Shown in pieces: positions 8,614 through 19,881 of a stretch of 21,449 nt of DNA. Each line of letters opens with the position of its first letter. Within the stretch, counting starts at the first letter, position 1. The DNA lies in the IMG/VR virus record IMGVR_UViG_3300001450_000162, positions 9,065 to 30,513 of that record. One strand, written 5' to 3'. Source of the DNA: a virus. Under the pieces are notes generated by a model that did no database searches, had not been told where the DNA came from, and saw nothing but the letters and a program-made list of their open reading frames with translations. The translations under genes and the position numbers were made by a program.

Positions 8614-11600
8614 TGGGTGCTAGAAAAACAACAGCCTCAACTTTATATAGCGATATAGACTCAAACGCTTTAATACTTCCTGAAAAAAGAGGAGGTTTTA
8701 AAACAGGCTATATTCAAAAAACTCACAGTGAGCTAAGAACTGACCCAAAATATCAACAAGAGTCAGAAAAATTCTTAACATGGCTTGGGGAAAATCAAGG
8801 TGCTTTTGAAAAAATTACTGGTGGCTTAGTCTCGTCTGATATATTTGAAACTATAAGGGACGAAGAAGGCCGTCTAGGTACAGCAGTAGATCGTGCTAAT
8901 ATTATGCGTGATGCTCCAGAAGACATAAAAGAAACTTACAAGTATTTATCCGAAGAGTTTGTAGCTTCTAAAGCAGGTAGTTTTGGTGAAATACTCAAGG
9001 CAACTTGGGACAGGGGTGTAGATATGGTTGCAGACCCCATCAATCTTACCTTTGCATTCGTAGCTCCGGGTGTAGGCAATGCTGCTACTAAGGCATCTAC
9101 TGCTGCCGCGCAAAAAGTAATTTCAAGTTCCGCAGGCAAGGCCGCTGCAAACAAAACTGTACGAAATGTAGCTGCTGCCAACACAGGTAAGGCTGCTGCA
9201 TTTGAAGGCGGTGCTTGGACAGGCATAGAAAACTACTACAGGCAGGATAAAAATATAAGTCTAGGCATCCAAGATACTTTTAGCAAAGGAGATTTTGCAC
9301 TCTCAACAGGAGCTGGTGTAGCACTAGGTGGGGCATTAGGCTATGGGCTTGCAAGAACTTTGGGTTCAACCCCCCGTATTGATAACATCGATGATACTTC
9401 TAAGACACTTCCAAATCTTAGAAAAGAATTTACTAACCCCGAAAGTCCCAGACCCGACACAATAGAATACAAGAAGTTTACTCCGCGTACAGGAGACACA
9501 CCTGCTACAGAGGTTGTTGAGTCTACTAAAATTAATTGGGGTCCAGTGCGGGGGGACGATGGCACTCCTAGAACTAGATCAGACGGTACTCCTATATTTG
9601 CTACTGCTAAATTCGATGATAATGGAAATTTTTTAAGCATTGACGTAGATGATGTTGCAATAAGAGAGTCCTTTGACAGAAAGCCGTGGACAAAAGAATC
9701 TCCAGTATTTGGAGTTAAATCTCTTAAAGCAAACGATATTCAGTCAGCAGATGAGTGGGTAATGTTTAGTTTATTCCACGAAAGAAACCATGCTAGTACT
9801 GGTAGTCTGTTTAAAAGTTTTGCTCCAGATTCAACTAAAACAGATTTAAGCAAAAAACTTGGAGAACAATTTGGCCCAACAAAATTAAGAGCATCTTATG
9901 AAAGAGCTAGGGCTGCTTATGAAAATGGGGCTAATGTAGCAGCATTAAAAGATTTAAAAATCTGGAGAAAAACTCAAGCACTTAATGAAGCTGAACTGCC
10001 TCCTGCTTTTGCAGGGGTACAAGCTAAAACTAATTCAACACTATCCAATGCTTTTAACAAAGTTCAATTTAGTGTCAACCCAATAACAGGTGCTAACTTC
10101 TATAATCGATTACTTAATCCAGAAGTAGATGCAGGGCTACTAAATAAATTTACAGTTGGATTAAAGGATAATACAAACGAGACTATTGTTTCTCTGCCCG
10201 AAGCAGATGCAGCCAATTTAATTTTAGCTGTTAGAGATATTATCATACAAAAAGCAGATGATGGCCGTGCCGTATTGGGAGTAGGAGATATTGCCCCAGA
10301 TATACAAACCGCTATACAAGGGTTTGGTTTTAACCCAGTACAAATTAAAAAGATTGTAGATGAAGTTACTGATGCCTATATTGCACCAGTAAAATTAGCT
10401 GATGATGCCTCTCCTGAAAAAGAACTAATAGCTCAAGGACGCTTAACCCCTGAAGCCATGCTAAATTTAAGTAATCAACTTGCTAACGACATAGGTGGTA
10501 GTAGTAGAAATACAGGTAGTATGTTTTTTGATGAGCTTGGTGCGTTAAATGCAGACGGTTCTTTAAATTCTACACAGGTTAAAGACAGCATGGCAAGTGT
10601 AGTAGCTGCTCAGACCCTTAACTATTTAGGTAGCAGCATAGGAGGCTTTGCAAAAGCAATTAATATCCTAGCCCCTTCTAAACGGTTTGGGCCTAATGTT
10701 ATATCTGCACTACAACGAACGGTTAATAGTGAAGCAGGTTCTTCTTGGAGAAGAGGCTCTGTTCAAGTTAGTGATATTTATGATTACAATACTTACAGCA
10801 ATCAAAAATTTGGAACTTGGCAAACCGCGTGGAGAGCTGCTTACGATGGTATTAAAGTAACTGCTAAAGGGCCACAAAGAAAAGAAGTAGATAAACTTAT
10901 ATCTAATGCTGTAAGAAAAAATACCATGATAGGATTGAGGGACATTAAATTTAATACACCGGAAGCAAAACAAGCAGTAGTGGATTCTATAGAAATATTA
11001 CAAAAACAACTAAGAGATATAGGTCAAGAAGGTAAAGCTAAAGGAGTACTACGCAATACAGTAGACAACTATCTACCACGTTTATGGGAAAGAGATAAAA
11101 TAATAGCAAACAGAGAAAAATTTACTACGCTAGTAATGCAAAAGAATGGCGTTAAAGGAATCGATACTCGTGAACAGGCAGAAAAGTGGATAGACGAAAC
11201 TTTAGATATTAAATATCAATTTGATAATGTCCATGCAGGTGGTGGTAATAGTTTTTTTGCAAACAGAAAGTTAGATATAGGTGACGATACTATATTTAAT
11301 GAGTTTTTAGTTACTGATCTAGACAGTCTTATGACAAGTTATTTTTCTTCAGCAGCTAAAGCAATAGGTAAGAAAGATATATTTGGTGTAAGAAATTTAG
11401 AAGAATTTAATCAACGATGGGGATCAGCCATAGAAAAAGAAATGAAACTCAATGGTGCTGATGGTAGTCAAATTCTAAGTGCTAAAAAGAATGCGGCTTA
11501 TTTATATAAAAACGTAACAGGCGAAGGCATGGACCGCTACGGCAAATATACACAAAATGCTATAGAAGGGTACATGCTTGGTAATAGAATGGCACTGTTG

Positions 11601-14246
11601 CCCCTGTCTACGCTGTCTAGCCTTACGGAAGTATTTATTAATATGTCTACAGCAGGAACAGGCACATTCTTCAGGGGCTTAAAAGATGCTACAATGAATG
11701 GCTCAAGAAAAATGTATGACGATAGTATAGACGTACTGACAAAAGTACACGGTATGTCTAGGGCTGAAGCTACAAGAGAGCTAAGAGAAACAGGCAGAGC
11801 TTTAGAACAGGCCGCTGCTGATGGCATAGAAAGATTAAGTGGTGATCAATTATCTAATACAACAATGAGAAAATGGAGTAATGCATTTTTCAAGCTTACA
11901 TTATTAGATCAGTGGACAAGGACTGTACAACTGGCTTCTTATACAACAGGTAAAAGATTAATCACAGAAAACATAGAAAGCCTTGCAGCTAAAGCATCCT
12001 TACTGGATACAAATCAAATTTCTAAAAGAATGCAAAACCAAATGGATCAACTTGCTGTTTTAGGTATAGACTATAGAGATGGAATTGCATGGTATAACGC
12101 AGGAGCTAAACTAGACGATGCCTTTTATTCAAAAGTAAAAAGCGGTGGTGGTAAATATACTGACGGGGTAATTCTTAATCCTTCAAGTGCCTCCGGTTTA
12201 AAACCTACGTTTATGTCTGATCCTAAGACAGCCGTATTTGGTCAGCTACTAGGCTATCCCGCTGCATTTACTAACACTATACTAAAAGGTATGGTAAAAC
12301 AAACAGTTCGTAATCCAGAAACTTTGTTTACTCAGCATATACCTGCTGCTGCTGTAATGACAGGCATTGCTGCTTTTACAAACGGAGTAAGGACTAACGG
12401 AGAATCTTGGGAAGACAAAGAAGGTTTTGAAATAGCAACAGATGGTTTTATTAGATGGGGCGGTAACGGAGTACTAGCCGATATGATGAAGAGAGGCAGC
12501 GAGTCTGCCCAATACTATCAGGAACCTATGGCTTACTTCACAGGCGCAGGCGTAGTAGCAGGAGATGTATACAATCTTGTTAGACAGGGTGATCTTATAA
12601 CTTGGTTGGGTAGTAAAACGCCCGGAAGAGGAGCTATCAACGCTATCTTTGGACCCTTTGAAGCCACTGAAGATTTTGCAGAAGACTATACCGATTGGCT
12701 CCGCGCTATGGATAAGAGGCTGGCCGACTTTGTTGTCCCCGAAAAGAAAGCAACAGGTGGCATAGTAGAAAACGTAGCTCAAGTTATTGAAGAACCCGAT
12801 GAACGTATAGATAGAATGACAGGACTGCCGTATAACATACAAGCAGGTGGAGCTTTTGTAGACGAAGAAGATCGTCAAGAATTTCAATTAGGCAGCATAG
12901 TTAAAGCTGGTGTAACTCTAGGTAATAGTATTTTAAAATCTAAATTTAGTCAAGCCTTAACAGACATAGCAGATAAAGGTATTAATATTCCTGTTCAGGG
13001 TCTTGAAAACGAAATGTTAAAAAGGGGAGTACCTGCTGCTGAAATGGAGGCTACTGGAATTAAAGATATACTTAAAGATAATATCTTGCGTGGGGTTAGA
13101 CATAAATCAGGCAGGCTAGATTTAGAACCAGATCAAATAAGAACAATAGATACACTAAGAAAAGACAGACAAGACATTGATAAAGATTTTGAATCTTTAC
13201 GTTCTACTACTGACAATAAAACAGTAATTGAAGATTATGGCCCAGATGCACCAGCTATAACTGCATACGACTATGCTAGGGCGCACTGGGGACGAGACTT
13301 TTTAAACTTTACGGGTCCACCTCTTGCACCTCCCCCAGAAATTGCAAACTACTTGCGAGTTGTACCACCTGATGTTAATGCTAAAACATTTGAAGTCTTA
13401 ATGTATCAAGACCCAAGAGTTGGTATTGGTAAATCAACTCATTTTATACGCAAGACAAATAAAACAAAAGTCGAAGCGCCTTTAGATTGGGATACAGTAC
13501 AAGACCCAGTCCCAGTCCCAGACCCAGAGCAAATTCCTTATACTTATCATGCAAGAATAGATGTAGATGGAGATACTCTTAGAGTATTTGAAATGCAAAG
13601 TGACGTAAGGTTTGATCAAAGAAATGACGCTGGCGAGTTAACATCTTTTCATAAGCGTATGCCTTTTTATGGTGTTTTAGATAAAATAGATGCTGAAGAT
13701 ATAGACGACTTTTTAAAGACAATACCGAAAGGCACACACAAAAAATTAAAAACTCAAATAAAATCTTTTAAAGATTTATTTGAAGACACTAAAGATCAAG
13801 TTAAAGACGGTATAATATCTTCCGAAGGGAGGCTTGACTTATTAGAAATGCGTTTAACATTTATAAATTCAAGCGATGAATTTACTGCTTTTGAAGGAGC
13901 AAGTGCTGTAGATTCAGATATATATCAACCTTTAATAAATAGAATGATAAATGAGGCGCATAAGAGAGGTCTTAAAAAAGTTCAATTTTTAATAGGCGAT
14001 GATTCTAGTGATAGCATTACGTATTTACGACCCCTAAATAGATCACCATCAATACAGAAGCACTATGAACAAATGGTTGCTTCGCAAATAAAATCAACCG
14101 CTAAAAAAATAAAAGCTTCTTCTCCTAGTATGGATAATAAAGGATATTTAACAATAACATTGCCAGAAAAAGATTTTTCCTTGCCTATGTATAAAACAGG
14201 TGGCAAGGTACTAGGAAGTCTTGGAAGAATTAGAGGACGCACATGA
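8613..14246 (+). CDS. Giant multidomain virion/DNA-ejection protein
   Basis: This 1877-aa protein is the largest in the window. Hydrophobic Gly/Ala-rich segments sit at about 140-165 and 228-251 and could insert in membrane. A zincin-like H389-E-R-N-H393 motif (..WVMFSLFHERNHAST) lies in a segment I recall from other large phage internal proteins. Residues about 900-1380 are helical (GQLLGYPAAFTNTI, WLRAMDKRLADF) as in large ejection proteins. Residues 1380-1430 hold a linker with ATGGIV, RMTGLPYNIQAGG and DEEDRQE. About 1455-1850 resembles, diverged, the EIQSDW-type domain of large phage and plasmid proteins: GVPAAEMEATGI, then YTYHARI, then VFEMQSD (E1660-D1664), then INRMINEAHKRGL. The end is YKTGGKVLGSL plus basic residues. 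A DNA-ejection role is inferred. The stop overlaps the M15 gene start (ATGA). Confidence 0.85.
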   Translation: MGARKTTASTLYSDIDSNALILPEKRGGFKTGYIQKTHSELRTDPKYQQESEKFLTWLGENQGAFEKITGGLVSSDIFETIRDEEGRLGTAVDRANIMRDAPEDIKETYKYLSEEFVASKAGSFGEILKATWDRGVDMVADPINLTFAFVAPGVGNAATKASTAAAQKVISSSAGKAAANKTVRNVAAANTGKAAAFEGGAWTGIENYYRQDKNISLGIQDTFSKGDFALSTGAGVALGGALGYGLARTLGSTPRIDNIDDTSKTLPNLRKEFTNPESPRPDTIEYKKFTPRTGDTPATEVVESTKINWGPVRGDDGTPRTRSDGTPIFATAKFDDNGNFLSIDVDDVAIRESFDRKPWTKESPVFGVKSLKANDIQSADEWVMFSLFHERNHASTGSLFKSFAPDSTKTDLSKKLGEQFGPTKLRASYERARAAYENGANVAALKDLKIWRKTQALNEAELPPAFAGVQAKTNSTLSNAFNKVQFSVNPITGANFYNRLLNPEVDAGLLNKFTVGLKDNTNETIVSLPEADAANLILAVRDIIIQKADDGRAVLGVGDIAPDIQTAIQGFGFNPVQIKKIVDEVTDAYIAPVKLADDASPEKELIAQGRLTPEAMLNLSNQLANDIGGSSRNTGSMFFDELGALNADGSLNSTQVKDSMASVVAAQTLNYLGSSIGGFAKAINILAPSKRFGPNVISALQRTVNSEAGSSWRRGSVQVSDIYDYNTYSNQKFGTWQTAWRAAYDGIKVTAKGPQRKEVDKLISNAVRKNTMIGLRDIKFNTPEAKQAVVDSIEILQKQLRDIGQEGKAKGVLRNTVDNYLPRLWERDKIIANREKFTTLVMQKNGVKGIDTREQAEKWIDETLDIKYQFDNVHAGGGNSFFANRKLDIGDDTIFNEFLVTDLDSLMTSYFSSAAKAIGKKDIFGVRNLEEFNQRWGSAIEKEMKLNGADGSQILSAKKNAAYLYKNVTGEGMDRYGKYTQNAIEGYMLGNRMALLPLSTLSSLTEVFINMSTAGTGTFFRGLKDATMNGSRKMYDDSIDVLTKVHGMSRAEATRELRETGRALEQAAADGIERLSGDQLSNTTMRKWSNAFFKLTLLDQWTRTVQLASYTTGKRLITENIESLAAKASLLDTNQISKRMQNQMDQLAVLGIDYRDGIAWYNAGAKLDDAFYSKVKSGGGKYTDGVILNPSSASGLKPTFMSDPKTAVFGQLLGYPAAFTNTILKGMVKQTVRNPETLFTQHIPAAAVMTGIAAFTNGVRTNGESWEDKEGFEIATDGFIRWGGNGVLADMMKRGSESAQYYQEPMAYFTGAGVVAGDVYNLVRQGDLITWLGSKTPGRGAINAIFGPFEATEDFAEDYTDWLRAMDKRLADFVVPEKKATGGIVENVAQVIEEPDERIDRMTGLPYNIQAGGAFVDEEDRQEFQLGSIVKAGVTLGNSILKSKFSQALTDIADKGINIPVQGLENEMLKRGVPAAEMEATGIKDILKDNILRGVRHKSGRLDLEPDQIRTIDTLRKDRQDIDKDFESLRSTTDNKTVIEDYGPDAPAITAYDYARAHWGRDFLNFTGPPLAPPPEIANYLRVVPPDVNAKTFEVLMYQDPRVGIGKSTHFIRKTNKTKVEAPLDWDTVQDPVPVPDPEQIPYTYHARIDVDGDTLRVFEMQSDVRFDQRNDAGELTSFHKRMPFYGVLDKIDAEDIDDFLKTIPKGTHKKLKTQIKSFKDLFEDTKDQVKDGIISSEGRLDLLEMRLTFINSSDEFTAFEGASAVDSDIYQPLINRMINEAHKRGLKKVQFLIGDDSSDSITYLRPLNRSPSIQKHYEQMVASQIKSTAKKIKASSPSMDNKGYLTITLPEKDFSLPMYKTGGKVLGSLGRIRGRT

Positions 14247-14611
14247 AATATTTTACTAAAGAAGAACTTACATGCTCTCACTGTGGGGCTAGTGATATAG
14301 ACGCACCTTTTATGGAGAAAGTAGAAGCTCTCCGCGAAGAACTAGGGTTTCCTTTCCCGGTCAACAGTGCCTACCGTTGCAGAGATCACGCTATAGAAGC
14401 TCGTAAGAAGGCTCCGGGCGCACATTCGACAGGTCACGCAATAGATATTGCAGTCTCTGGAGAACAGGCTTACAGGCTTGTAGAGGCGGCTATACGGTCT
14501 GGTAACTTTGAAGGTATTGGAATTAACCAGAAGGGACGCAGTAGATTTATACATTTAGATGACATTGAAAACACACCTGAACGGCCCAGACCGTGGCTAT
14601 GGAGCTATTAA
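14243..14611 (+). CDS. M15 family D-Ala-D-Ala-type peptidase (endolysin candidate)
   Basis: This 122-aa protein is a compact zinc peptidase that should cleave peptidoglycan peptide stems. The layout matches Peptidase_M15_3 (PF08291): an N-terminal F..EELTCSHCG element with C11 and C14, then VNSAYRC (residues 40-46), the signature AHSTGHAID with zinc ligands H61 and D68, and FIHLD with H104 as third ligand and D106 beside it, ending in PWLWSY. All expected metal ligands are present, so it should be active. There is no signal peptide, so it would depend on the holin at 448 for access to the wall if it is the endolysin. Its start overlaps the stop of the 1877-aa gene (ATGA). Its last codons contain the ribosome binding site of the next gene. 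Confidence 0.9.
   Translation: MKYFTKEELTCSHCGASDIDAPFMEKVEALREELGFPFPVNSAYRCRDHAIEARKKAPGAHSTGHAIDIAVSGEQAYRLVEAAIRSGNFEGIGINQKGRSRFIHLDDIENTPERPRPWLWSY
14601..14604 (+). promoter_or_regulatory. Ribosome binding site for the cytochrome-copper protein
   Basis: GGAG at 14601-14604 lies 9 nt before the ATG at 14614, inside the 3' end of the M15 gene. It supports the ATG at 14614 over the in-frame GTG at 14593 and ATG at 14599, and the 14614 start gives a cleaner signal peptide. Confidence 0.65.
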
Positions 14612-14613
14612 TT

Positions 14614-15930
14614 ATGAAAAAGCACTTAGATGAATTGTTTCCTTTGGTTGTTGCTGTCTGCTTAATCGGGTGGATGTGGGGTTCTTTAGCTTATGCCGAT
14701 GAGCCTACCTATGTAGATGACGTAGCTCAGATCATTAACGATAACTGTGTTGTGTGTCACCGTGAAGGTGGTATTGGTCCAATGACGTTTGAGACTTACG
14801 AACAGATAAGACCGTGGAGTCCTCTGATACAGCACAAAGTAATAACCAGAGAGATGCCTCCCTATGCCTATGATGCAAATATTGGTATACAAAACTTGCA
14901 TGGCGATTGGCGGCTATCCCAAAAAGATATAGATATCATAGCTGAGTGGGTCGATACAGGGTCAAAGTACGGAGATAGGGACATTGTAGTACAGGCTCCT
15001 GTCTTGTCTGATCCTAGTCAGTGGAGTTTCTACGGAGACTTCGGAGAGCCTACACTAGTTATACCCTCTACACCTATAGACATCCCCGCAAGTGGCAATG
15101 ATCTTTGGCATAAGCACAACGTAGCCAGTGGGTTGACCGAAGACAGGTGCATTAAAGCTGTGCAAGTTAAACCCAGAGGCGATGCAAAAAGCGTAGTACA
15201 CCATGCAAACTCTACAATAACATTAGATGGTGAAAGGTACGGGATGCTTACTGAGTATGCTATGGGCAAGTGGGGCGAAGTTGTACCCGATAATATATGC
15301 AGAACAATGCCAGCCAACGCTGAGATAGCTTGGGACATTCACATGTTTCCGGGTGGCTTGGGTGCAATAGCTCCCGGTACAATGATCAAAGACAATGTAG
15401 TAGAAATAGGTCTATGGTTATACAGCGCAGAAGAGTCTAAAAAACTAACGTACAAGCAAGACTTAAAGCTGTATAGGATTGGCAACCAAGAAGACATAAC
15501 TATACCACCCAATGATTACTATATGACTCAAGCCTTTCACAGCTTTGATCATCCAGTGCGTATAGACTCTTGGCAACCTCACGGTCATCTGCGTATGAAT
15601 GCAGCAAGCTTTGAAATATTCTACCCAGACACAGGGCTTACAGAGTCTATCAGTCAAGTGTCTAACTGGAGTGCTACATGGCATCATAGTCACCTATATG
15701 ATAGTGACTACGCACCCCTATTGCCTACTGGTGCAGTCTTAGTACTGAAGCAATGGTATGACAACACGACTGACAACCCCAATAATCCCGATTCGGATAT
15801 GTGGGTTGTAGGCGGTAGCCGCACTGGTGATGAAATGACCCACGCTTGGATCGCAGTTACGCATCTTGATGATGAAAAATATGAAGAACTTTTAAACGAA
15901 AGAAACAATAGGACATTACTAGCACAATAA
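14614..15930 (+). CDS. Secreted cytochrome c-copper (PHM-type) monooxygenase-like protein
   Basis: This 438-aa protein should act in the periplasm. Residues 1-28 form a signal peptide with a hydrophobic core and an AYA|DE cleavage site. A cytochrome c domain follows (about 30-120): C45-V-V-C48-H49 binds heme, and M81 in REMPPY is the likely axial ligand. The rest matches the type II copper, ascorbate-dependent monooxygenase fold. H196-H197 (VVHHAN) and H243 (IHMFPGG) form one copper site; H323-G-H325 (PHGH) and M408 (TGDEM) form the second. LPTGAVL, DNTTDNPNNPD and G.RTGDEM are further family marks. All six copper ligands are kept. Bacterial proteins with this domain order exist and their substrate is unknown to me. 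The stop overlaps the next start (TAATG), placing it firmly in the phage late operon. It looks like an auxiliary metabolic gene. Confidence 0.88.
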   Translation: MKKHLDELFPLVVAVCLIGWMWGSLAYADEPTYVDDVAQIINDNCVVCHREGGIGPMTFETYEQIRPWSPLIQHKVITREMPPYAYDANIGIQNLHGDWRLSQKDIDIIAEWVDTGSKYGDRDIVVQAPVLSDPSQWSFYGDFGEPTLVIPSTPIDIPASGNDLWHKHNVASGLTEDRCIKAVQVKPRGDAKSVVHHANSTITLDGERYGMLTEYAMGKWGEVVPDNICRTMPANAEIAWDIHMFPGGLGAIAPGTMIKDNVVEIGLWLYSAEESKKLTYKQDLKLYRIGNQEDITIPPNDYYMTQAFHSFDHPVRIDSWQPHGHLRMNAASFEIFYPDTGLTESISQVSNWSATWHHSHLYDSDYAPLLPTGAVLVLKQWYDNTTDNPNNPDSDMWVVGGSRTGDEMTHAWIAVTHLDDEKYEELLNERNNRTLLAQ

Positions 15931-16403
15931 TGATTGAGGTAACACTGGCTTTAAGTGCTGCGGTAAGAGCCGTAGGTGTAATAAAAAAAGGACTTGCACT
16001 GGGCAAGGAAGCATCTGAACTTTCTTCTCAGTTTGGCGAGTTTTTTGACAGCAAAGATAAAATAGCTGCCGCTAGAGCAGAAGTAGAAAACACTACACTA
16101 GGTAGTAAGGTCTTTGCAAAACAATCAGTTGAATCTTATGCACTTGAAGTTGCTTTAGCAGAACACAAGACTAAGGAACTGGAAAAACAACTACGCGAAT
16201 TGTTTGTTTATTCAGGACAGACAGAAATATATACATCAATGATGCGGATTCGCGCCCAAGAACGTAGACGTAGAAGTATACAAGCTAGGCGTGTAGCAGA
16301 GCAGAAGAAGTTTGCTGCTGACATGCTATTAATAGCGGGTATGGTAGTTGTAACTTTAGGATTTATAGGTGCGTTAATTATGTTAGTAGTAAAGGGGCTA
16401 TAA
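15930..16403 (+). CDS. Conserved phage protein with C-terminal membrane anchor
   Basis: This 157-aa protein has an amphipathic N-terminus (IEVTLALSAAVRAVGVIKKGLALGKE, about residues 2-27, quoted here as IEVTLALSAAV and onward), a charged helical middle rich in Glu, Lys and Ala (43-92), a very basic stretch (RAQERRRRSIQARR, 108-121) and one strong membrane helix (about 132-155). The beginning ..LALSAA....I.KG...GKE and the E.ALE.A...HKT.ELEKQLRE block resemble a small family I recall from marine phages, usually next to lysis or internal virion genes and without known function. The basic stretch before the helix predicts an N-in, tail-anchored topology. The start overlaps the preceding stop (TAATG) and the stop abuts the next ATG, so it is expressed with the copper protein. 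Confidence 0.85.
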   Translation: MIEVTLALSAAVRAVGVIKKGLALGKEASELSSQFGEFFDSKDKIAAARAEVENTTLGSKVFAKQSVESYALEVALAEHKTKELEKQLRELFVYSGQTEIYTSMMRIRAQERRRRSIQARRVAEQKKFAADMLLIAGMVVVTLGFIGALIMLVVKGL

Positions 16404-16813: not shown

Positions 16814-17788
16814 CTAGACCGCTATACTTGTAAATTGAACGGTTTCCATATTACCTTTTATGCCGCCCTTCATATAAGTAGTAGCCCGGCCCTCAAAAAA
16901 ATTCTGATGCTCTACTCCAAGAACATCGTCTAACCAATTAAGAGGATTATTTTTTACCCCGTAGTTAGGTTTTAAACCAAGCTGAAGCAAGCGTCTGTCT
17001 GCGATGTATCTAATATATTGCTTCATCTCTTCTTTAGAAAGACCTTGTATGTCTCCCATTTTAAATACTAAATCAAGAAACTTATCTTCTAGCTTCACCA
17101 TCTCTCTGCATACTTGATATATTTCTTTCTTAAAGTCATCAGTCCAGAGGTCTAGGTTTTCTTTTATAAATTCTCTAAAGAGCTTGGTCATTGCTTCAAC
17201 ATGCAGTGACTCATCGCGTATGCTGTAAGTCACGATCTGCCCCATGCCTTTCATCTTCCCGAACCTGGAAAAGTTCAACAAGATTACAAAGCTGCTAAAG
17301 AGCTGAAGCCCCTCAGTAAATGCTGAATAGATAGCCAGATTTTTAGCTATAGATTGTTTATCATTTAATTTTAAAGGTGAGCTATTAACGTACTCATGCT
17401 TTGCAGCCATCTCTTCGTAGTCAGCAAAAGCTTTGTACTCTACTTCAGGCATCCCCACAGTATCAAGCAGTAGGCTATAAGCATGTTGGTGTATGGACTC
17501 CATGTTAGCAAAGGAAGACATCATCATCCTAGCTTCAGGCTTTTTAAAGACCCTCATATACTTATCTATATAGCCAGAGGCTACGTCTACATCTGATTGC
17601 GTAAAGAGTCTAAAGATTTGAGTAAGAAGATTAACTTCTTCTGCACTCATCTCTTGCCAATCTTTTACATCGTTGTGCAAGGGAACATCTTCTGGCAACC
17701 ATAGCATTTGATTCTGCTGAACGTAGTAATCAAACATCCACGGATAGTCGAAAGGTTTGTAGTAATCTCTTGTACCTAATAAGCCCAT
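16814..17788 (-). CDS. nrdB: Ribonucleotide reductase class I, small (radical) subunit
   Basis: This 324-aa subunit generates the tyrosyl radical that NrdA uses to reduce ribonucleoside diphosphates, feeding phage DNA synthesis. The dinuclear metal ligands are all visible: D66 (TQSDVDV), E97 and H100 (MESIHQH), E159 (FTEGLQ), E193 and H196 (RDESLHVE). The radical tyrosine is Y104, seven residues after E97 as in E. coli NrdB (E115 to Y122). E159 to E193 is 34 residues, as in E. coli, but E97 to E159 is 62 rather than 89, the shorter spacing found in NrdF-type and eukaryotic R2 proteins. AGGAG stands 6 nt before the ATG. It begins 1 nt after the 90-aa gene in the order nrdA, 90-aa, nrdB. Confidence 0.95.
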   Translation of the reverse strand: MGLLGTRDYYKPFDYPWMFDYYVQQNQMLWLPEDVPLHNDVKDWQEMSAEEVNLLTQIFRLFTQSDVDVASGYIDKYMRVFKKPEARMMMSSFANMESIHQHAYSLLLDTVGMPEVEYKAFADYEEMAAKHEYVNSSPLKLNDKQSIAKNLAIYSAFTEGLQLFSSFVILLNFSRFGKMKGMGQIVTYSIRDESLHVEAMTKLFREFIKENLDLWTDDFKKEIYQVCREMVKLEDKFLDLVFKMGDIQGLSKEEMKQYIRYIADRRLLQLGLKPNYGVKNNPLNWLDDVLGVEHQNFFEGRATTYMKGGIKGNMETVQFTSIAV

Positions 17789-17789
17789 C

Positions 17790-18062
17790 TTAAACTCCTG
17801 TTTCTACTTCTATTTCGTATTCCCAATACTCTACGATCATACCTTTTGGTACGACCATAATAGCATTGACGTATTGCCTTTCTTTTTTACTATGGAAGAT
17901 GTCAGTTGAGAGAATAAGCTCATTCTCATTGTCTGCTACCAACCAGCCTACTGTTGAGCGCAGGATAGATTTAAGTTTCTTAGCATCAGTAATAAGAATA
18001 TCGTCAGTATCTATCCAAGCATCTTCCCATTTAACTTCTATTACTTTATTTTTAGCCTTCAC
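17790..18062 (-). CDS. Conserved small protein between nrdA and nrdB
   Basis: This 90-aa acidic protein has the pattern VKWEDAWIDTDD, then STVGWLVADNENELIL, then VVPKGMIVEYWEYEIE. The W.DA.., GWL and PKGMI elements recur in small proteins I recall from phages, where no function has been assigned. It starts with GTG at 18062, overlapping the nrdA end by 11 bp, and stops 1 nt before the nrdB start, so the three genes are one translational unit. That position invites a link to RNR or nucleotide metabolism, but nothing in the sequence proves it. AAGGA lies about 10 nt before the GTG. Confidence 0.8.
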   Translation of the reverse strand: MKAKNKVIEVKWEDAWIDTDDILITDAKKLKSILRSTVGWLVADNENELILSTDIFHSKKERQYVNAIMVVPKGMIVEYWEYEIEVETGV

Positions 18063-19881
18063 AACTTAGACATCCTTCTTCCTCCAAGTTTAACCGGGGT
18101 ATTTTTATATTAACATTCTCTGTATTTCTAGCTGAATCAGATCGTAAGTAATAGAGAGATTTAAGTTTATGTACTCCTGCCCAATGCACATCATTTAAAT
18201 ATTGTAAATAAGAGTCATGGGTTTCTTGGTCTGCATCTATTGATGGCGGTTTAAAAAATAGATTAACACTTTGACTTTGACATATATACTTTTGTCTCTG
18301 ATGGGCGTGTTCAATAATCCATATCTGATTAATCTCAGGGGCTGTTTTAAATATTTCTTTTTGATCAACATCTAAAATATCTAAGTGCTGCACTGACCCC
18401 TCGTGTGCTGCTATATCTTTCCAGACTTCTTCTCTCTTGTTTTCAGAGGGGACTAACTCTTTTAGCAGCCGCTCTAAATATTTATTCCTAACTTTAAAAC
18501 TACCTGTCAATGTTTTATGTGTATATACATTAGCCCGGTGAGGCTCAATAGATGGGCTTGTGCCACCACATATAATAGAACTAGAAGCATTAGGAGCTAC
18601 TGCCAGCAGGTGTGCGTTTCTTTTGCCACTCCCTTCCATGTCAGGAGCTTCACCTCTCTCAGAACCCAGTAATCTTGTAGTAATGTCAGCCCTATTTTTA
18701 ATAAAAGAAAAAGCTTTGTTGTTGAAAGAGGCAGCGTACATACCTTCAAAGGCAATACTATGCTGCTGTAAATAACTATGGAATCCCATAGCTCCCAGAC
18801 CTATAGACCTCTCTCGCATAGCAGAGTAGGCCGCTTTAGAGTAGCCGACTTTACCCTCTACAGAATTAATAAAACTATCTAATACATTATCTAACATAGT
18901 GACAAGATCAGATATAAAATCTTCGTTAGTGGACCATGCATCGAAGTACTCTAGGTTAACACTAGATAGACAACAGACTGCTGTTCTTTCTTCGTTAGTA
19001 GGTAGAGTTATTTCAGAACACAAATTACTTTGTTTTATTTCTAATCCTAATTTCTTCTGCTCTTCAGGGAGTGCCTCATTACATGTATCTATATTGACTA
19101 TGTATGGCTCCCCGGTTTCTACTCTGGTTTGTATTATCTGAAACCATAAGTCCCGCGCTGATACTATCTTCACGGCTGTGTTAGTCTTAGGGTCTATTAA
19201 TCGCCACTCTTCATCTGCTGCTACTGCCTCTAGAAACTTGTTAGTAATGTTAACTGCATTGTGGAGGTTCAAACATTTTCTGTTTAAGTCTCCTCCTGTA
19301 GTTTTCCGCATGTTAATAAACTCTTCTATTTCTGGGTGCGCTATATCTATGTAAGCTGCATAGCTGCCACGCCTAGTTATGCCCTGATTAAAAGCTAACA
19401 TCTGAGAATCTACGACATGCATAAAGGGGATAGACCCAGTACTGCGACTCCCGTTAGAAGTATCCACACCATTGCTGCGAACATCACCCCAAAATCCACC
19501 GATGCCTCCACCTCCACTAGCAAGCCATATGTTTTCATCATAATGAGCAGATAGCCCATCCCTAGAATCAGGAACATAGTTAAGAAAACAACTGATAGGT
19601 AGACCGCGACTGGTTCCCCCGTTAGAAAGTATAGGAGTACTGAAGCTAAACCAATGATTACTAGCGTACTCGTAAATTCTCTGTCCAAGATGAAAGTCAG
19701 TATGTCCTTTATAAGTAGCCCCAAATATAGCGGCCCTTGCAAAAGCTTGTTGAGCATGTGTTTCCCCTTCCCATAAATATCTATCTACAATTGTTTGTTT
19801 ACTAAAAGTATTCAGCTTTTCTTCTCGATCATAATCGATATGAATACCTAAGTATGGCTGAACTCCGATCTTCTCAGTCAT
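18052..19881 (-). CDS. nrdA: Ribonucleotide reductase class I, large (catalytic) subunit
   Basis: This 609-aa protein reduces ribonucleoside diphosphates to deoxy forms. All catalytic residues are present: the disulfide pair C98 (LPISC) and C303 (AVCCLS), N286, thiyl C288 and E290 (SNLCSEI), radical-transfer tyrosines Y577-Y578 (SLYYLRS), and the C-terminal redox pair C604 and C607 (GCLSCEG). It is about 150 residues shorter than E. coli NrdA (761 aa). The missing part is N-terminal: the protein begins near the catalytic core, so the ATP-cone that gives dATP feedback inhibition is absent. C304 directly after C303 is an extra cysteine. AAGGAG stands 10 nt before the ATG, inside the upstream 40-aa ORF, which overlaps this start by 8 bp. 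Confidence 0.96.
   Translation of the reverse strand: MTEKIGVQPYLGIHIDYDREEKLNTFSKQTIVDRYLWEGETHAQQAFARAAIFGATYKGHTDFHLGQRIYEYASNHWFSFSTPILSNGGTSRGLPISCFLNYVPDSRDGLSAHYDENIWLASGGGGIGGFWGDVRSNGVDTSNGSRSTGSIPFMHVVDSQMLAFNQGITRRGSYAAYIDIAHPEIEEFINMRKTTGGDLNRKCLNLHNAVNITNKFLEAVAADEEWRLIDPKTNTAVKIVSARDLWFQIIQTRVETGEPYIVNIDTCNEALPEEQKKLGLEIKQSNLCSEITLPTNEERTAVCCLSSVNLEYFDAWSTNEDFISDLVTMLDNVLDSFINSVEGKVGYSKAAYSAMRERSIGLGAMGFHSYLQQHSIAFEGMYAASFNNKAFSFIKNRADITTRLLGSERGEAPDMEGSGKRNAHLLAVAPNASSSIICGGTSPSIEPHRANVYTHKTLTGSFKVRNKYLERLLKELVPSENKREEVWKDIAAHEGSVQHLDILDVDQKEIFKTAPEINQIWIIEHAHQRQKYICQSQSVNLFFKPPSIDADQETHDSYLQYLNDVHWAGVHKLKSLYYLRSDSARNTENVNIKIPRLNLEEEGCLSCEG

Follow-up and report, generated by a model that had tools for sequence, protein, structure and literature searches.

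Why should a phage carry, at the end of its late operon beside the lysin gene and away from its early metabolic genes, a gene that reads as a secreted cytochrome c joined to a copper monooxygenase? The question is raised by a window of 21,449 nucleotides (the whole stretch of DNA analysed here, positions 9,065 to 30,513 of IMG/VR virus record IMGVR_UViG_3300001450_000162), in which an open reading frame running from an ATG at 14614 to a TAA at 15928-15930 encodes a protein of 438 aa. The first-pass annotation, made from the sequence alone, had described the product as an exported cytochrome c fused to an intact PHM-type copper monooxygenase of phage origin, and had suggested that it opens a nutrient or changes electron flow during infection. 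The analysis described below bears out that annotation on protein class, intactness and phage origin; the proposed role remains an inference, with no substrate shown.

The gene and its surroundings

The features of the locus are collected in Table 1. The neighbouring nrdB and nrdA genes lie on the opposite strand, as does an endonuclease gene, and the first 9 kb of the 30.5-kb virus record hold further genes which read, by inspection, as virion genes. The 157-aa protein encoded immediately downstream of the enzyme is seen by inspection to consist of a coiled coil plus a C-terminal hydrophobic helix. The gene for this protein also flanks the enzyme gene in a different, T4-like contig (L043), and may travel with it.

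Table 1. Features of the enzyme gene, its product and its neighbours (window positions)
Feature	Position	Strand	Basis
M15-type peptidase/endolysin, directly upstream, 2 nt gap	14243..14611	+	PHROG 894 endolysin E 4e-28
GGAG, probable ribosome-binding site, 9 nt before ATG	14601..14604	+	sequence
Secreted cytochrome c - copper type II monooxygenase (main type), 438 aa	14614..15930	+	ORF, fold, profile, conservation
Sec signal peptide, residues 1-28, cleavage after AYA	14614..14697	+	by inspection; model helix 5-24
c-type cytochrome domain, residues about 29-120	14698..14973	+	weak Cytochrome_CBB3/Cytochrom_C matches; CxxCH and MPP invariant
Heme attachment motif CVVCH (45-49)	14746..14760	+	sequence; invariant
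Probable axial Met M81 in EMPP	14854..14856	+	invariant
Two-domain PHM/DBH-type copper monooxygenase, residues 143-419 (predicted fold)	15040..15870	+	VIA-align: model 143-419 on PHM 55-325, Z 18.7
CuH ligands H196, H197	15199..15204	+	aligned to DBH/PHM HH pair; invariant
CuH ligand H243	15340..15342	+	aligned to DBH HY site; invariant
CuM ligands H323, H325 (HGH)	15580..15588	+	aligned to DBH HTH; invariant
CuM ligand M408 (DEM)	15835..15837	+	aligned to DBH EEM and PHM DEM; invariant
157-aa protein gene, start overlapping the enzyme gene's stop (TAATG)	15930..16403	+	sequence
Phage ribonucleotide reductase small subunit (nrdB), convergent neighbour	16814..17788	-	PHROG 86 E 3e-89
Phage ribonucleotide reductase large subunit (nrdA)	18052..19881	-	PHROG 84 E 7e-161

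Heme and copper domains

The Pfam cytochrome models match the protein only weakly, with scores under their cut-offs. The features expected of a c-type cytochrome (a CxxCH motif, a distal axial ligand and an export signal) are nevertheless all present, the export signal resting on inspection only: the AYA site at residues 26-28 is compatible with a Sec signal peptide, the first-pass annotation having likewise read a signal peptide there, and the structure model places a helix at residues 5-24. The residue positions given in that annotation (CVVCH 45-49, HH 196-197, H243, H323/H325 and M408 in TGDEM) were likewise all correct.

The copper domain is less readily recognised. Single-protein searches of Pfam, NCBIfam, PHROGs and PDB sequences gave nothing decisive, and the Pfam models Cu2_monooxygen and Cu2_monoox_C, put forward by the first-pass annotation as a check, found no copper domain in the 438-aa protein even at E<=1. 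A confident structure model (pLDDT 88.4, pTM 0.85) was obtained from an alignment with 84 diverse relatives, which raised confidence over a model from 21 close viral relatives (pLDDT 49). When this model was searched against the PDB with Foldseek, the best 31 matches were all PHM or dopamine beta-hydroxylase (DBH), with a best E of 3.6e-10; a fold search of BFVD returned nothing with a meaningful TM-score. In VIA-align comparisons DBH reached Z 20.0 (rmsd 3.6, 292 residues aligned) and PHM about 19, the next fold, PNGase, falling to 8.7, so the resemblance is not just that of a common jelly roll. Furthermore, a profile of bridge and family proteins (A4) matched human DBH (E 1.3e-7) and rat PHM (0.0025) in the PDB, a less diverse profile (A3) having failed to find PHM there, and in the printed alignments the HH, HY, HTH and EEM of DBH land on the HH, HY, HmH and dEM of the profile. 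Finally, the distant bridge relatives L165 and L166 exceed the Cu2_monoox_C cut-off and have all ten heme and copper residues in common with the 438-aa protein; since that cut-off is reached only by such distant relatives, the window protein is to be seen as a divergent member. The cut-off is regarded here as a tool for recognition, not as a biological criterion of superfamily membership.

The copper assignment thus rests on the PHM/DBH fold, the ligand-aligned profile match to DBH and PHM and the bridge proteins above the Pfam cut-off. Conservation was followed in 153 unique viral sequences (100 full-length main-type and 53 of the second type, T2, described below), in which the heme motif, the axial methionine and the six copper ligands show no substitution, the sole exceptions being alignment gaps; the ligand-conservation check that the first-pass annotation had proposed is therefore passed. 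Taken together, the 438-aa protein is a member of the PHM/DBH superfamily, with its two-domain fold and with CuH and CuM ligands intact. The fold is that of a predicted model, in which the ligand distances, and hence the clustering of the six residues that the earlier annotation had wished to see, were not measured, and hydroxylation activity is inferred.

Several residues are invariant in the main type only, namely the W-HHSH motif (357-360), the cysteine pair C179/C229, H410 and W412. The two cysteines vanish together in other types, and these residues may constitute an extra metal or substrate site and a disulfide. A PmoABC-type membrane subunit of pMMO/AMO was also considered and excluded, the protein having the PHM/DBH fold and a single N-terminal signal-like helix.

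Distribution among phages and selection

Main-type relatives were confirmed by tblastn at 85 stretches of IMG/VR viral contigs, which shows that the reading frame is no chance occurrence. Locus counts are upper bounds on phage counts, because some loci are one contig retrieved by two scans, and the viral labels are those of IMG/VR, hallmark neighbours having been checked for selected lineages, not for all. When loci are grouped by common neighbours, seven groups of five or more appear. The podovirus-like order virion protein - lysin - enzyme - nrdB - nrdA is found, whole or in part, in more than 30 contigs, and other loci adjoin T4-like genes (gp46/47-like SbcCD, gp32-like SSB, clamp loader, gp23-like major head protein and tail fibres). 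In more distant podovirus relatives (e.g. L185, L196, L198 and L204) the lysin lies beside nrdB without the enzyme gene, which suggests insertion at the junction of the late operon and the nrd genes. Moreover, a 94% identical copy (L002) stands in a different gene neighbourhood, suggesting transfer between phages.

Against its five closest phage relatives the enzyme gene shows dN of 0.034-0.077 and dS of 0.76-1.17, giving a dN/dS of about 0.04-0.07, comparable to that of the neighbouring RNR genes; the gene is under strong purifying selection. With counterparts in bacteria, a place in a genuine phage genome and maintenance by selection, it qualifies as a phage auxiliary metabolic gene, its expression and activity during infection being inferred.

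No relative was found among 50,697 deposited phage records or in deposited plasmids, and a search of the open-access literature found no report of the gene in phages. It has no PHROG match, stays under the Pfam cut-offs and is not recognised by NCBIfam models at cut-off. Being below Pfam cut-offs, without a PHROG and absent from deposited phages, it would be missed by standard screens.

A second enzyme and a free cytochrome c

T2, a second and divergent family member of about 412 aa with a complete ligand set, was found in these scans at 123 viral stretches, as against 85 for the main type (examples are L044 7235-8461, L035 6586-7821 and L250-L328). In all 74 of the loci that hold both, the two genes share a strand, with T2 downstream. 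In twelve loci T2 is directly preceded by a gene for a small cytochrome c, free and secreted (Pfam Cytochrom_C E 1e-7), which lies between the two enzyme genes where both are present. This small c-type cytochrome, seen at L258 561-926 and at 11 further viral loci, is a candidate for a dedicated electron donor. The spread over several phage lineages, the frequent pairing with T2 and the occasional free cytochrome c are established here and go beyond the first-pass annotation.

The nearest bacterial relatives of T2 are redoxin - cytochrome c - copper monooxygenase proteins (49%), and in bacteria, too, a redoxin-type gene is found near the main type, though on the other strand. It thus looks as if the phages possessed both halves of a system that bacteria also have, cooperation of the main type with T2 being an inference.

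Bacterial relatives and origin

The existence of bacterial proteins with the same domain order, asserted in the first-pass annotation, was confirmed (62-73% identity). Bacterial main-type genes come almost exclusively from marine Gammaproteobacteria of the Pseudohongiella/OM182 type, which the phylogeny, another of the checks then proposed, gives as the nearest bacterial relatives. Among 274 sampled gammaproteobacterial genomes only the Pseudohongiella centre genome had a main type above 60% identity. The five genomes examined (G003-G007, labelled Pseudohongiella, OM182 or SAR86) held 15-34 family matches each, a large uncharacterised expansion in marine bacteria.

In the tree, built by a quick method, the viral rows come together in a single group with a support of 98; this group is mainly viral and takes in both podovirus-like and T4-like phages. 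Three bacterial rows (L082, L084 and L087) are nested within it, and the direction of transfer for these is not settled. Two further loci with bacterial labels, L081 (Neomarinimicrobiota) and L085 (Flavobacteriales), also fall in this group and were left aside because they are probably phage contigs binned with bacterial MAGs: L081 is a contig of 335 kb whose neighbouring genes match the viral contig L043 and whose MAG has no other full-length copy.

A gammaproteobacterial source of the gene is inferred from the tree. The host of the phage has not been shown: its RNR is nearest to that of Pelagibacter phages, the closest deposited match of the nrdA product being Pelagibacter phage HTVC115P (59%), and a comparison of GC content (0.44 in the enzyme gene against a background of 0.39, bacterial loci being mostly 0.45-0.62) gave no host identification.

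Related bacteria carry tandem copies, several of them beside genes for a GMC oxidoreductase and gluconate-2-dehydrogenase subunit 3, which fits an alcohol product that is oxidised further; as the bacterial gene neighbourhood differs between genomes, this pathway reading is a loose one. A gene whose secreted product, about 317 aa long, has no Pfam match precedes the copper monooxygenase genes at L106 3114-4049 and at 53 more bacterial loci. Neither this protein nor the GMC oxidoreductase nor the other bacterial partners were found in the phage loci. At L107 1041-2777 (- strand) and similar bacterial loci, the redoxin-cytochrome-copper paralogue beside the main type has RARM at the position of the CuM HxH; it thus keeps its CuH ligands and has probably lost CuM.

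Proposed mechanism

The reading preferred here is that the gene is an auxiliary metabolic one whose product acts as a copper monooxygenase in the periplasm. In the absence of substrate, assay or expression data a probability of only about 0.62 is assigned to it; the place of the gene beside the lysin at the late operon's end, outside the early metabolic genes, also counts against it. It is based on the fold and profile matches, the unsubstituted ligands, the bridge proteins, the low dN/dS and the phage neighbours in several lineages, as well as on the fixed order with T2, the free cytochrome c beside T2, the bacterial tandem copies with their dehydrogenase neighbours and an oxygenase-rich sister family. 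The latter is HTCC2089, a sister family of Pseudohongiellaceae, for which large numbers of oxygenase genes were described in a study of North Sea Gammaproteobacteria (PMC8371827).

In this view, the enzyme would be exported by the host Sec system, receive its heme from the host cytochrome c maturation machinery and be loaded with two coppers in the periplasm; these needs, the last two of them already named in the first-pass annotation, are retained as inferences. Electrons would come from the host periplasmic cytochrome c pool, not from ascorbate as in the eukaryotic relatives, and in some phages from the phage-encoded small cytochrome c, and would pass from the fused heme to CuH and on to CuM. 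There O2 would be activated and a small organic molecule hydroxylated at a C-H bond (or a heteroatom), water being formed alongside. Electron flow, O2 activation at CuM and hydroxylation are all inferred from PHM/DBH biochemistry. The phage gene may add flux to, or redirect, oxidative pathways run by Pseudohongiella/OM182-type bacteria with many family copies, and some electrons may be drawn from the terminal oxidase in late infection.

A bolder reading, which at present falls a little short of even odds, is that of a mobile periplasmic oxidation cassette common to marine podovirus-like and T4-like phages, made up of the main type, often followed by T2, and in some phages of a dedicated cytochrome c. 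The main type and T2 would then act together on one substrate or pathway, and a phage module for electron transfer and hydroxylation would reshape how oligotrophic marine Gammaproteobacteria oxidise carbon and use O2 while infected.

Alternative explanations

One alternative is envelope modification, the enzyme oxidising a lipid, a polysaccharide substituent or a surface protein and so blocking superinfection or helping lysis. The late-operon position right after the endolysin, the periplasmic export and the membrane-type 157-aa protein overlapping the stop of the enzyme gene speak for it. However, T4-like phages place the gene among replication, recombination, capsid or tail genes and not among lysis genes, and its close relatives are multicopy bacterial enzymes, several of them near dehydrogenases and not near envelope biosynthesis, which makes this explanation unlikely.

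Similarly improbable is an electron sink, or a device for handling O2 or radicals, which would mainly draw electrons out of the host's pool of cytochrome c or clear away O2 or reactive species, hydroxylation being incidental. The fused cytochrome and, in some phages, the extra cytochrome c are in its favour; against it, T2 and the main type are maintained as two different enzymes, and conservation of a complete CuM site together with a large set of main-type-specific residues points to substrate chemistry over leakage.

Alpha-hydroxylation of a C-terminal glycine, as in PHM, for peptide amidation or signalling, has the fold and the copper ligands in its support and is nonetheless very doubtful. 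PHM binds the peptide carboxylate via R240, N316 and Y318. In the phage enzyme these anchor positions hold Q321, H410 and W412, invariant in 56 main-type sequences, and their replacement disfavours peptide amidation; moreover, no PAL lyase domain is fused to the protein, and none of the genes adjoining the phage gene was recognised as encoding a lyase.

Finally, it can be all but excluded that the gene is host DNA, carried as a passenger or decaying, or that the contig is a host's and only labelled viral by mistake, as the first-pass annotation had expected for decaying DNA: IMG/VR does contain bacterial contamination and the gene family is common in bacteria, but contamination as the cause of the viral placement is ruled out by the phage-gene synteny in the podovirus-like contigs, the phage hallmark neighbours in other lineages, the well-supported viral group in the tree and the low dN/dS.

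Significance

Under the preferred reading of a periplasmic copper monooxygenase, the gene would link infection by phages to the oxygen and copper chemistry of the periplasm, and the occurrence of its relatives in many unrelated ocean viruses suggests a viral influence on oxygen chemistry in the outer compartment of infected cells. It encodes a complete enzyme of the PHM/DBH class, equipped with a heme domain of its own for electron input and widespread among ocean phages. As a secreted protein that can be expressed, this enzyme represents a bacterial family whose substrate is unknown; with so many family copies in some marine bacteria, the phage protein could reveal the function of a large family.

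Comparison with known systems

With the DBH/PHM superfamily the phage enzyme shares the two-domain fold, the two copper sites and all six ligands, that is, the same kind of two-copper machinery as human cells use for adrenaline-type hormones. It differs in being phage-encoded, in its low identity (~12%), in the replaced PHM peptide anchors and in its N-terminal cytochrome c, presumed to supply the electrons that otherwise come from external ascorbate/cytochrome b561.

The cytochrome c - copper monooxygenases of marine Gammaproteobacteria (Pseudohongiella, OM182 type) are alike in architecture, ligands and sequence. Unlike the phage genes, theirs often stand in tandem arrays with the 317-aa secreted protein, the GMC oxidoreductase and other partners, and the phage genes form a group of their own with the three bacterial rows nested in it. 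The bacterial redoxin - cytochrome c - copper proteins, some of which exceed the Pfam Cu2_monoox_C cut-off, are closest to phage T2; T2 is without the redoxin domain, and in the bacterial proteins encoded next to the main type the HxH of CuM has been lost.

To our knowledge, no phage copper monooxygenase genes are known other than those for the pmoC/amoC membrane subunits. Phage-encoded pmoC (PMC7674155) likewise represents part of a host copper monooxygenase system carried by a phage, but it codes for a single subunit of a membrane enzyme that has several, whereas the phage enzyme described here is complete, secreted, of unrelated fold and provided with its own electron-transfer domain.
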